A stretch of 11,603 bases of DNA, from NCBI GenBank assembly GCA_012719115.1, contig JAAYAZ010000053.1:1-11603 (forward strand), written 5' to 3'. The stretch comes from Dehalococcoidales bacterium. Its GTDB lineage: Bacteria > Chloroflexota > Dehalococcoidia > Dehalococcoidales > UBA5627. The position numbers and the translations under genes are program-made. Positions 7,306 through 11,603 of this stretch are shown here, piece by piece (the stretch's first letter is position 1; every line of letters starts with the position of its first letter). The notes under the pieces are model-generated. The model made no database searches, was not told the origin of the DNA, and worked only from the letters and a program-made list of their open reading frames with translations.

Positions 7306-7935
7306 ATGTCTTTTCAAAATCCCACCAATATTAACGTTCAAATCGAGAAAGGGATAGGTATTCTAAAAAATGGAGGTGTTATAGCATTTCCAACGGATAC
7401 CGTCTATTGTCTTGCTGCCAGGTACGACAGCATGGAGGCTCTCAAACGTATTTACGAAATAAAACAAAGGCCGCATAGCTTAGCCCTGCCAGTAATGGTA
7501 GCTAACAAACAACAAATCAACCAAGTAGTAGATTATATATCAGATATGGCGTTATGTTTTATTAATGAATATATGCCGGGACCGATTACACTTATAATGC
7601 CAAGAAGAAAGTCGGTTAATGATATTATCACCAACGGAAAGGAAACTATCGCCGTTCGTATTCCAAAGCATCGAATGACTATCGATTTAATTAAAGGCAC
7701 AGGGGTGCCGTTAGCCGCAACCAGCGCCAACATCAGTGGTATGTCCAGCAATATTGACGCAGAAAATGTCATTACACAATTAGGTAATGAAGTCGACCTT
7801 GTTATCGATGATGGTAAATGTCCTATCGGCGTAGTATCCACTATCATCGATGTGACAGGACGGTATCCGATTATATTAAGAGAGGGTGCTATTACCCGCA
7901 GTGAACTGGAATTATTCTACGAGGGGATAAAATAA
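7306..7935 (+). CDS. tsaC: Threonylcarbamoyl-AMP synthase (Sua5/YrdC/YwlC family)
   Basis: This enzyme makes threonylcarbamoyl-AMP from threonine, bicarbonate and ATP for the t6A37 modification of ANN-decoding tRNAs. The 209 residues contain the YrdC domain only, without the C-terminal Sua5 domain. Motifs: FPTDTVYCL at 28-36, KQRPHSLALPVMV at 53-65, PGPITLIMP at 91-99, AVRIPKH at 116-122, ATSANISG at 138-145 and STIIDVTG at 178-185. The usual PTDTVYGL has Cys35 instead of Gly. The frame is open upstream to 7147, but that part runs antisense through guaA. ATG 7306 follows AGGA by 9 bases and matches the family N-terminus. It is divergent from guaA and overlaps rpiB by one base (TAATG). Confidence 0.93.
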   Translation: MSFQNPTNINVQIEKGIGILKNGGVIAFPTDTVYCLAARYDSMEALKRIYEIKQRPHSLALPVMVANKQQINQVVDYISDMALCFINEYMPGPITLIMPRRKSVNDIITNGKETIAVRIPKHRMTIDLIKGTGVPLAATSANISGMSSNIDAENVITQLGNEVDLVIDDGKCPIGVVSTIIDVTGRYPIILREGAITRSELELFYEGIK

Positions 7936-8396
7936 TGAGTACAAAGCAGATTGCTATAGGATGCGACCACAGGGGGCTGGATTTAAAGGAAAAGGTCAAA
8001 AATATTCTAACCACGAATAGTTATACCTGTAAAGACGTCGGTTGTTTTACAGAGGAATCCGTCGATTATCCCGATATTGCCGAGCTTGTCTGTGACAGTA
8101 TTATCAATGGGGAATCCGATAGAGGAATACTTATTTGTTCCACAGGTGCAGGAATGAGCATTGCCGCTAACAAGGTAAACGGAATAAGGGCGGTTTTGTG
8201 CTTCGACAGTTTTTTGGCATTGCGCGCACGGCAGCACAACGATGCCAACGTGCTATGCCTTGCTTCAAGTGTTAATCCTGATTCACTTCAGGATATTGTC
8301 ATTAGTTTCCTCACAGGCACCTTCGAAGGAGACAGGCATCTACGCCGCATCGACAAAATAAAAGCCATTGAGTCCCGTAACAGACAGTCTTGTTAA
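7935..8396 (+). CDS. rpiB: Ribose-5-phosphate isomerase B
   Basis: RpiB interconverts ribose 5-phosphate and ribulose 5-phosphate in the non-oxidative pentose phosphate pathway. It therefore supplies ribose for PRPP and hence for the purine genes nearby. The 153 residues are the usual length. Motifs: GCDHRG at 9-14, SVDYPD at 42-47, ICSTGAGMSIAANK at 67-80 with catalytic C68 and the anion-hole glycines, and ARQHNDANVL at 98-107 with H101 as the likely ring-opening base. FEGDRHLRRIDKI at 130-142 contacts phosphate. The ATG shares its A with the tsaC TAA, and GAGGGG lies 8 bases upstream inside tsaC, so the pair is co-translated. The related LacA/LacB isomerases are a less likely alternative given this context. 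Confidence 0.93.
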   Translation: MSTKQIAIGCDHRGLDLKEKVKNILTTNSYTCKDVGCFTEESVDYPDIAELVCDSIINGESDRGILICSTGAGMSIAANKVNGIRAVLCFDSFLALRARQHNDANVLCLASSVNPDSLQDIVISFLTGTFEGDRHLRRIDKIKAIESRNRQSC

Positions 8397-8417
8397 TATT
8401 GTTAGCTTTAAATATAT

Positions 8418-8447
8418 TTGACACTTTACACAGGACTATGATATTTT
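8418..8447 (+). promoter_or_regulatory. Probable ilv operon promoter
   Basis: A perfect -35 TTGACA (8418-8423) is followed by TATTTT after 18 bases (8442-8447) or GATATT after 16 bases (8440-8445). The start would be near 8454. It lies in the 149-base gap between rpiB and ilvD and upstream of the terminator hairpin, so transcripts from it carry the leader before reaching ilvD. Confidence 0.6.
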
Positions 8448-8465
8448 AGGTATAAAAATACGGAG

Positions 8466-8519
8466 ATGGGCTTATTTAACCTGTTGTTAGATCCGTCCCC
8501 AAAGGGATGGGTTTTTTAA
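8466..8519 (+). CDS. Possible ilv leader peptide with Leu-Leu-Leu
   Basis: A 17-codon frame reads MGLFNLLLDPSPKGWVF and then TAA. Leucine codons are TTA at 8472 and the run CTG-TTG-TTA at 8481-8489, which ends just before the 5' arm of the terminator at 8491. A ribosome stalled on the run for lack of charged leucine tRNA would cover that arm and block the hairpin, giving read-through into ilvD. The weak point is the ribosome site: GGAG (8462-8465) abuts the ATG with no spacer. The frame also continues through the hairpin to the T-run, unlike classical enteric leaders whose stop lies earlier. Confidence 0.4.
   Translation: MGLFNLLLDPSPKGWVF
8491..8517 (+). terminator. Intrinsic terminator, probable ilv attenuator
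   Basis: ATCCGTCCC (8491-8499) pairs with GGGATGGGT (8504-8512) in a 9-bp stem (two G-U pairs) with loop CAAA, followed by a T-run through 8517. It is the only intrinsic terminator I can see in the window. It is downstream of the TTGACA promoter and ends 28 bases before the ilvD ATG, leaving no room for another promoter. It may also end tsaC-rpiB transcripts, which have no other terminator. Confidence 0.8.
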
Positions 8520-8531
8520 TTTTATTAACTT

Positions 8532-8537
8532 GAGGAG
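8532..8537 (+). promoter_or_regulatory. ilvD ribosome binding site
   Basis: GAGGAG lies 8 bases before the ATG at 8546 and just after the terminator T-run, so it is outside the hairpin. Control is therefore likely at transcription termination rather than by sequestering this site. Confidence 0.8.
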
Positions 8538-8545
8538 AACACATA

Positions 8546-10213
8546 ATGAAAAGTAATGTAGTTAAACAAGGAATAGAAAGAGCACCGCACCGTTCCTTGA
8601 TTCATGCATTAGGTGTTTCCACTCCGGATATGAAAAAACCATTTATCGGCATTGTAAACAGCTTTACGGAAGTGGTTCCGGGGCATATCCACTTAAGAAG
8701 TGTTGCTGATGCAGTAAAAGATAGTGTTCGCCAAACCGGTGGCGTTCCTTTTGAGTTCAACACAATCGCGGTATGCGACGGTATTGCTATGAATCATGCC
8801 GGTATGAAATACAGCTTACCCAGCCGTGAACTGATTGCGGATTCTATAGAAATAATGGCTCAGGCACATGCTTTTGACGCACTGGTTTTTATCACCAATT
8901 GCGACAAGGTAGTGCCCGGAATGTTAATGGCTTCTCTGAGATTAAACATCCCGGCTATATTTATTAGCGGCGGTCCTATGATGGCAGGCAAGTACTGTAC
9001 AAGCGAGGGAGAACAAAAAGTAGACCTGAACTCAGTCTTTGAGGGCGTCGGAAAAGTTGTCAGAGGACAAATGACCGAGGATGAGCTGGAGGAACTGGTT
9101 GAGGTGGCATGCCCCGGCTGTGGCAGTTGTTCCGGAATGTTTACTGCCAATACAATGAATTGTATGACCGAAGTAATGGGAATGGGACTGCCCGGTAACG
9201 GAACTATTCCGGCTATTGACCCACGAAGAATTGAACTTGCAAAAAAAGCGGGCACTAAAATTATGGAACTTCTAGTCGATAATATTTGCCCCAGAGATAT
9301 TATAAATGCCGATTCATTGGAAAATGCCTTCTCGGTCGATATGGCGTTAGGCGGCAGCACGAATTCGGTTTTGCATCTTATAGCTATTGCGCATGAAGCG
9401 GGTGTAGAGTTTCCGCTGGACAGAATAAATTACATCAGCGAAAAAACACCCTGTCTTTGCAAATTAAGGCCTGCAGGAACATACCATATCGAAGACCTTG
9501 ATAGGGCGGGCGGAATTTCCGCAGTAATGAAGGAATTACAGTCTTTATTGAATTTGGAGCTGAAGACGGTTTCCGGCTTAACGATAGGACAAATTATAGA
9601 TAAAGCCTCCGTGATTGATAGTGATGTCATTCGCTCGAAAAGTACCGCTTATTCAGACAAGGGCGGATTAGCTATACTGTTTGGCAATTTGGCTCCTGAG
9701 GGCGGCGTTGTTAAAAGGTCGGCGGTTGCACCCGAAATGATGGTGCACCAGGGTCCGGCGCGCGTATTCGATTCCGAAGATGACGCCACCAAAGCAATAA
9801 TGCAAGGTAAAATAAAATCCGGTGACGTCGTGGTAATACGCTATGAAGGACCGAAAGGCGGTCCCGGTATGAGAGAAATGCTGACCCCGACTTCCCTGTT
9901 AGGTGGTATGGGTCTTGATAAAGAAGTAGCATTAATTACAGATGGGCGCTTTTCCGGTGCTACCAGAGGGGCAGCTATAGGACATGTATCACCGGAAGCT
10001 GCTGCCAGAGGTCCGATAGCTGCTGTTAAAGAAGGCGACATAATAAGTATAGATATACCAAATAACAAGCTTGAGGTTAAACTTACAAATGACGAAATAA
10101 CACAAAGAATTAACAGTCTGGATAAGTTTGAACCTAGATTCAAGACAGGTTATCTGGCACGATATGCTGAAAATGTTACATCGGCAAGCAGCGGGGCTGT
10201 TTTTAGTAAATAA
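8546..10213 (+). CDS. ilvD: Dihydroxy-acid dehydratase
   Basis: IlvD dehydrates 2,3-dihydroxy-isovalerate and 2,3-dihydroxy-3-methylvalerate to the 2-oxo acids in valine, leucine and isoleucine synthesis. It needs an Fe-S cluster and Mg2+. The 555 residues are full length. Motifs: VPGHIHL at 44-50, [19 protein letters not shown] at 77-95, [10 protein letters not shown] at 118-127, [18 protein letters not shown] at 189-206, PKGGPGM at 436-442, and [10 protein letters not shown] at 466-475 with the likely base S470. Cluster ligands C119 and C195 are present. The position that is Cys (PCN) in the [2Fe-2S] class is Gly46, as in the E. coli [4Fe-4S], oxygen-labile class. Sugar-acid dehydratase Edd is less likely, because the neighbour is ilvB. 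The stop is 12 bases before ilvB. Confidence 0.97.
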
Positions 10214-10225
10214 TGGGGGTATGCT

Positions 10226-11603
10226 ATGAAGAAAACCGGTTCACAAATACTGTGTGAAAGCCTGATTAATGAAGGAGTGGACACTATGTTCGGCATACTC
10301 GGAGGTGTTATCATTCCATTTTATGACACACTGCCTCAGTACCCTCAGCTCAAACATATTCTGGTTGCTCACGAGCAGGGAGGAGCACACGCCGCCGAGG
10401 GATATGCGCGTGCTACCGGCAAGGTAGGGGTATGCATAGCTACATCGGGACCGGGAGCAACAAATCTGGTTACCGGAATTGCAGATGCTTATATGGATTC
10501 TGTCCCATTGGTAGCTATTACCGGACAGGTTGCCCGTTCACTTATAGGTAAAGACGCTTTTCAGGAAATTGATATCATAGGTATTACATTGCCGATTACC
10601 AAGCATAATTACCTTGTAACAGATACTGCCTCACTGGCCGGTATAGTTAAGGAAGCCTTTTTTTTGGCAAGAACAGGCCGGCCCGGACCGGTGCTGATAG
10701 ATATACCTAAAGATGTTCTAACAGGACTGGCTGAGTTTAATTACCCTGAACAAGTTTCTTTGCCCGGATATAAACCTAAAGTTCAGGGGCATCCGGCCCA
10801 AATTAACAAGGCAGCTAAATTAATCAACGATTCTAAAAAGCCGCTTATAATTGCCGGGCGCGGAGCAATTATTTCGGAATCCTACAATGAATTAAAACAA
10901 CTGGCCGAAACCGCTCAGATACCGGTAATTACTACATTGCTTGGTATTAGTTCCTTCCCCGAGTCGCATATTTTATCTTACGGTTGGCTGGGTATGCATG
11001 GAATGGCTTATGCCAATCTGGCAGTTGAAGAATGCGATGTAATGATTGCAATCGGGATGAGATTCGATGACAGGGTTACCGGTAAAATCAGCGGCTTTGC
11101 TCCCAATGCCAAAATCATACATATTGACGTTGACCCGGCTGAAATCGGTAAAAATGTCCGCGTTGATATCCCTATAGTCGGAGATATAAAACCCATACTG
11201 CAAAATCTAAATAAAGCGATTGAACAACAGGACCACATTGATTGGATATCCAGAATGGACTATTTACGCAAGGAACATCCATCCATTAATATTAGAGATG
11301 CTGATTGCATAATACCTCAATATGTAATCAGGCAAATATATGAGAGTACTCAAGGCAATGCGATAGTTGTAACCGGAGTCGGACAACATCAAATGTGGGC
11401 AGCACAACATTTCTGGTTCGACAAACCCAACAGCTTGATTACATCGGGCGGATTGGGCACTATGGGCTACGGTCTGCCGGCTGCCATGGGTGCAAAAGTA
11501 GCCTGTCCTGATGAAAATGTGTGGTGTATAGACGGAGACGGCAGTTTCCAGATGAATATACAGGAGTTGGGTACGATAGCCAGGGAAAATATCGGAGTTA
11601 AAA
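10226..11603 (+). CDS. ilvB: Acetolactate synthase large subunit (partial, 3' end cut)
   Basis: This is a thiamine-diphosphate enzyme that condenses two pyruvates to acetolactate, or pyruvate with 2-oxobutyrate. About 459 codons are present; roughly 100 more are expected beyond the window. Visible: the N-terminal ThDP pyrimidine domain with catalytic Glu50 in AHEQGGAHAAEGYARA, TSGPGATNLVTGIADAYMDS at 73-92, QVARSLIGKDAFQE at 101-114, the central FAD/DHAP-like domain (about 190-330) with GMRFDDRVTG at 277-286, and the ThDP motif GDGSFQMN at 437-444. The ATG follows GGGGG by 6 bases; ATGs at 10213 and 10221 are out of frame. It lies 12 bases after ilvD, so the two are co-transcribed. ilvN would be expected downstream but cannot be seen. 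Residues 23-27 read GILGG where GxPGG is usual. Confidence 0.96.
   Translation, partial: MKKTGSQILCESLINEGVDTMFGILGGVIIPFYDTLPQYPQLKHILVAHEQGGAHAAEGYARATGKVGVCIATSGPGATNLVTGIADAYMDSVPLVAITGQVARSLIGKDAFQEIDIIGITLPITKHNYLVTDTASLAGIVKEAFFLARTGRPGPVLIDIPKDVLTGLAEFNYPEQVSLPGYKPKVQGHPAQINKAAKLINDSKKPLIIAGRGAIISESYNELKQLAETAQIPVITTLLGISSFPESHILSYGWLGMHGMAYANLAVEECDVMIAIGMRFDDRVTGKISGFAPNAKIIHIDVDPAEIGKNVRVDIPIVGDIKPILQNLNKAIEQQDHIDWISRMDYLRKEHPSINIRDADCIIPQYVIRQIYESTQGNAIVVTGVGQHQMWAAQHFWFDKPNSLITSGGLGTMGYGLPAAMGAKVACPDENVWCIDGDGSFQMNIQELGTIARENIGVK

Follow-up and report, generated by a model that had tools for sequence, protein, structure and literature searches.

A candidate compact, peptide-less transcription attenuator upstream of ilvD in a Dehalococcoidales bacterium

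Several phyla are known to control branched-chain operons by ribosome-mediated attenuation, as described in the available excerpts of three reports (PMC11857589, PMC5794164, PMC1262725). The ilvBNC attenuator of Corynebacterium glutamicum combines, in the excerpted account, an overlapping terminator and antiterminator with a leader peptide that is translated (MTIIRLVVVTARRLP) and in which experiments showed the codons to matter, a third, anti-antiterminator hairpin and a leader of 292 nt (PMC11857589). The excerpt on ilvB leaders of Actinobacteria reports candidate ORFs with runs of Ile, Val and Leu codons that overlap the terminator and are described as common to genera; codon changes in the Streptomyces coelicolor leader had no effect (PMC1262725). 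Before ilvD of Staphylococcus aureus, the excerpted text places an attenuator with a 26-residue peptide whose Ile and Leu codons are conserved in staphylococci and supported by mutants (PMC5794164). According to the available part of a 2010 survey, branched-chain leader peptides had been shown, before its own cases from Firmicutes, only in Proteobacteria and Actinobacteria, and changes of the sensing system at syntenic attenuators were already noted (PMC2965389). The excerpt of an Rfam survey of cis-regulatory RNAs names T-boxes of Chloroflexi and does not name such leaders (PMC3766115). Among the matches listed in the open-licence literature there was no paper on branched-chain leader peptides of Dehalococcoidales, and nothing relevant on Dehalococcoides start sites.

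The leader analysed here resembles that of S. aureus in its position before ilvD and that of C. glutamicum in the overlap of terminator and putative antiterminator before a branched-chain operon. It differs from both in the peptide, from the C. glutamicum leader also in the third hairpin and the length, and from the actinobacterial leaders in that its candidate frame is not shared even within its genus. It lies in a window of 11,603 nucleotides, which is the whole stretch of DNA analysed, from a genome that comprises 268 contigs and 1.25 Mb; the nearest named relatives of its ilvD are Dehalococcoidia/Dehalococcoidales MAGs. The features of the locus are as follows.

7935..8396, forward strand: rpiB, the upstream gene (TIGR01120 above cut-off; Pfam PF02502)
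8418..8447, forward strand: promoter, TTGACA at 8418-8423 and -10 box TATTTT at 8442-8447, with an 18-base spacer
about 8452-8456, forward strand: expected transcription start, inferred from the promoter
8462..8469, forward strand: putative antiterminator 5' strand GGAGATGG, predicted to pair G8462-G8463 with C8499-C8500 and G8465-G8469 with C8493-C8497
8466..8519, forward strand: 17-codon frame (coordinates include the stop codon) containing CTG-TTG-TTA at 8481-8489; lacks conservation and is judged to be no leader peptide
8489..8517, forward strand: intrinsic terminator, 11-pair hairpin at 8489-8514 and T run at 8512-8517
8531..8537, forward strand: ilvD ribosome binding site, containing GAGGAG (from the sequence)
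8546..10213, forward strand: ilvD, dihydroxy-acid dehydratase (TIGR00110 above cut-off)
10226..11602, forward strand: ilvB, acetolactate synthase large subunit, continuing beyond the window (TIGR00118 above cut-off)

The sequence-only reading of this region had proposed an attenuator-type leader, and its landmarks are all in place: the promoter, the ATG at 8466-8468 that opens the frame, the Leu codons, and the ilvD ATG 28 bases past the end of the T run at 8517. Comparison supports the promoter: across the order it recurs before ilvD as TTGACA and, in most cases 17-18 bases further on, a TAnnnT-like -10 box. The terminator, given as a 9-bp hairpin at 8491-8517, is real as regards the hairpin and its T run; its size was understated, the stem having 11 pairs (five of them G-C) around the loop CAAA at 8500-8503. 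Terminator-like sites number four in the 1.1 kb scanned versus 0.7 expected from shuffles, and the fold of 8446-8522 taken alone is ordinary (z -1.17). An intrinsic terminator between a promoter and the first gene is what an attenuator requires, and the claim that read-through must be allowed holds; the start-proximal terminator downstream of the ilvD promoter is kept in much of the order, which makes 'attenuator-type' an apt label.

Searches with the riboswitch and amino-acid leader models of Rfam 15 gave no match in the window at gathering score, none in 8300-8700 up to E=1, and none at gathering scores in 11 related loci drawn from different leader classes. The T-box model left the window without a match and, as a positive control, found an RF00230 T-box of 116 bits in the same genome (contig C88, L264:244-493), before a gene called ileS-like by eye from its first residues; the organism thus also uses tRNA-sensing leaders.

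Within the order, ilvD was located in 138 of 156 genomes, and 124 upstream regions were read. Real leader peptides rich in Leu, Val and Ile precede ilvD in 35 of them (for example MNEQNVTLVLIVMKQSP, MSTQYATLVLIVISRYR and MNRHMVIVLLVTYK); a script requiring an ATG frame with at least five Leu/Ile/Val in six codons flagged 36, from which L173 was dropped as false. A promoter and a hairpin were both found in 103 regions, which comprise 34 peptide leaders (class A), 45 compact leaders including the window (B1), 13 compact leaders of family f28 (B2) and 11 of family f10; in several relatives the scan found no hairpin. The distance from the -10 box to the hairpin is 73-89 nt in peptide leaders (34 of the 35, those with a hairpin found), usually 29-41 nt in compact leaders, with 41 in the window, and mostly 15-28 nt in f10. 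In genus g17 of f10 (L179, L183, L186, L188), 15-16 nt separate the -10 box from an 8-pair hairpin, which lies nearly at the mRNA 5' end and whose T tract, ATTTTAGTTAG, is poor. The f28 leaders (e.g. L151, L168, L176) carry ACGGGCU at the expected start, a sequence able to pair with the AGUCCGU or GGUCCGU found in their terminator arm. In these leaders the position at which transcription begins could thus by itself select the fold.

The compact leaders are akin to the peptide leaders. Class A leaders resemble the window in their site before ilvD, often behind rpiB, in the promoter, in the same gap before ilvD, and in the GTGGG strand and CCGTCC hairpin; they differ in the longer distance to the hairpin and in the peptide, which the window lacks. 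An rpiB match lies within 400 nt upstream in 20/35 class A regions and in 34/57 of the others outside f10 and f28. GTGGG and CCCAC or CCCGC (arm and loop) occur together in 26/34 A, 10/45 B1, 0/13 B2 and 0/11 f10 leaders (Fisher test, uncorrected for relatedness: 9e-7 for B1, 0.10 for A). In one pair, G010 (A) and G019 (B1), the ilvD proteins are 94.4% identical and each gene has rpiB upstream. The alignment of the two leaders contains several gaps; the principal gap, of about 50 nt, holds most of the peptide and is flanked on either side by the aligned promoter, GTGGGRTTTCG and hairpin. On a quick tree built from 69 ilvD rows, of which 60 were labelled (20 A, 40 not A), the two states require 11 changes, gain or loss alike, at least 4-5 of which are forced by well-supported branches. 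Compact and peptide leaders have evidently been interchanged repeatedly at ilvD.

A covariance model (R1) built from 25 B1 leaders matched 69 of the 156 genomes at E<=0.1; with more than 40 genomes the search applies stricter filters that can miss weak copies. At E<=1e-5, all 32 matches, training rows included, have either ilvD or a truncated ilvD downstream; one at E 2.4e-5 (G060) runs into 100 N and has an rpiB-like tail upstream. Fifteen further weaker matches were viewed and proved to be leuS, valS or ileS leaders, with L250 and L252 looking like chance. The leuS leaders of family f12 encode peptides with Leu codons (MNGQLLSFTLTITYSGR, MKAQIFSLVLSITYSG, MKRRYLILALSIHSP, MDSYNLLLALTVT) and a GTGGG/CCGTCC attenuator; the gene was identified with TIGR00396 at L242 (G053), L247 (G054), L249 (G059) and L255 (G055), and by eye at L241 and L246. 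Two valS leaders of the same family, L243 (G053) and L245 (G051; both genes TIGR00422 above cut-off), carry Val-rich peptides (MTINPVVVVM and MLNLVVIVTSLSR) and an attenuator-like hairpin; inspection by eye of the valS upstream region in the window's own genome (L262) showed no Val-rich peptide.

The earlier proposal had a ribosome cover the terminator directly, with no alternative fold. In its place we find a predicted antiterminator, in which a 5' segment pairs with the terminator 5' arm and the first loop base, so that the two folds are mutually exclusive, as judged from sequence alone on a chosen set of leaders. Growing transcripts of the window are predicted to adopt the antiterminator fold from about 8500 to 8508 (-11.4 kcal/mol) and the terminator fold from 8512 (-15.8 kcal/mol and lower). 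A family search gave six genomes including the window's, all of one genus, and the five congeners were aligned with the window: 42/42 cells of the antiterminator helix are paired, and 21/33 columns of the promoter, 14/21 of 8450-8470 and 22/29 of the hairpin and T run are invariant. In G003 a two-sided change turns a G-C pair of the antiterminator into A-U, the terminator having only a U-G wobble there; alone this is weak evidence, because 97/500 shuffles reach the same.

A wider set consists of the 25 leaders picked by eye from the 45 B1 for a GGTGGG-like segment, in which GUGGG...CGGA would pair with UCCG...CCCAC. They show nine two-sided cells versus 2.1 in shuffles, and 78.7% of cells paired versus 73.6%, values that 0/500 shuffles reach in either case; on weaker measures 21/500 shuffles reach the number of pairs with a two-sided change and 91/500 the number of pair types. 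Sliding the partners by +2 left five two-sided cells, four such pairs and 42% paired, and with one sequence per family P was 0.0008 and 0.0016 for two choices. A test of pairing energy with a leader's own arm versus foreign arms gave 45/5000 over all 45 B1 leaders and 174/5000 with one B1 per family, 11/22 families going in the right direction; it gave nothing in class A (2462/5000) or B2 (1141/5000). Compared with shuffled leaders, the pairing energy of leader and arm gives a weak signal (mean z -0.46 in B1). In B2 the different pairing of ACGGGCU with AGUCCGU is 96.1% paired, with no covariation. The terminator stem showed no covariation beyond shuffles, which is what one would expect of a 5' arm shared between two folds.

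The computation thus provides a terminator, an exclusive alternative fold that covaries in chosen relatives, no conserved frame, and kinship to peptide leaders. With moderate confidence, we read the window's leader as a compact, peptide-less transcription attenuator, its antiterminator/terminator switch being kin to the presumably ribosome-mediated attenuators of neighbouring lineages. We infer that this switch operates in the cell and controls ilvD. RNA polymerase would start near 8452-8456, and the early RNA, GGAGAUGG, would fold onto CCGUCCCC, the terminator 5' arm with the first base of its loop, as soon as this has been transcribed, forming the antiterminator. As the 3' arm emerges, the stronger terminator hairpin would compete, and the outcome would set how often polymerase gets to ilvD-ilvB. 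A related antiterminator/terminator pair occurs in sister lineages behind a peptide rich in Leu, Val and Ile that is presumably read by the ribosome; in the window's leader the peptide is absent and the putative antiterminator strand lies near the 5' end. Candidate triggers are folding kinetics together with polymerase speed, an RNA-binding factor, or a 30S subunit on the purine-rich strand; anti-Shine-Dalgarno pairing gives B1 only a small advantage over peptide leaders (mean z -0.98 vs -0.72). It seems rather doubtful, if conceivable, that the compact leaders of about 60 nt sense the branched-chain state without a ribosome, through an RNA-binding protein, a ligand or polymerase speed, and that sensing was swapped at this same locus several times within the order, in either direction.

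The strongest rival is that the compact leader is a relic or a fixed brake, the peptide having been lost or never gained, and that the folds set a constant read-through or protect the mRNA 5' end while nothing is sensed. No sensor is visible in these leaders, several relatives lack a hairpin by scan, and in f10 the hairpin follows the -10 box so closely in most rows, with a T tract that is partly poor, that no room is left for an antiterminator; it is mainly this last point that lends the rival its strength. In B1, however, the alternative fold covaries, and this suggests that a balance of two folds has been selected, which a plain relic would not need, and we regard a fixed brake as possible though somewhat unlikely.

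The mechanism first proposed for this leader, in which leucine shortage halts a ribosome at CTG-TTG-TTA, where it covers the terminator 5' arm and so permits read-through, now appears very unlikely. Its geometry fits and matches that of the actinobacterial ilvB leaders, genuine leader peptides occur in the order, and among the congeners the window's frame (MGLFNLLLDPSPKGWVF) has in-frame counterparts with LLL in G002 (MGIFYLLLDPSPKGWVF) and VLV in G005 (MGLSVLVNPSPKGWIF). Against it, the frame of G001 stops after the five codons of MGLFS, G003 has ATA in place of ATG, and the frame of G004 (MVFLTSRSVPKGTAF) is without a branched-chain run, so that the hairpin is kept in these three and the Leu-rich frame is gone, an outcome that the original proposal had itself named as refuting it. 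Its suggested check was whether Leu codons and hairpin are conserved while the rest drifts. In fact the Leu-codon stretch, where indels disrupt the frame, is the most variable part of the leader in the six congeners (2/19 columns invariant, five gapped). Three consecutive branched-chain codons occur in 3/6 congeners (window, G002, G005), and G001 and G002, which are sisters beside the window on the ilvD tree, differ in them; the run therefore does not look selected. Nor is there a usable ribosome binding site for the frame, since the GGAG abuts the ATG with zero spacing, a weak point admitted from the outset, and the ATG itself falls within the putative antiterminator helix. A frame with at least four Leu/Ile/Val per six codons arises in 14.7% of 300 base-shuffled leaders (P 0.147), and the leucine codons in the window's leader look like chance. 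The script counted ATG frames only; by eye, no frame common to the compact-leader families was seen with other starts or leaderless starts included. A leader peptide in the window was accordingly rejected.

That the hairpin is an insulator stopping transcripts that enter from rpiB, which lies directly upstream on the same strand, and is unrelated to ilvD control is hardly credible, as the hairpin lies downstream of the ilvD promoter and hence acts on ilvD transcripts too, 23 of 69 compact leaders with a hairpin have no rpiB match in the 400 nt upstream, and the alternative fold would be left unexplained.

Convincing branched-chain leader peptides are thus seen in Dehalococcoidales (Chloroflexota), and the ilvD locus of this order presents a natural peptide-deletion series, with attenuators that have and attenuators that lack the sensor peptide. 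With such a series one can test whether regulation by an antiterminator/terminator pair persists without ribosome sensing and, if so, what takes over.
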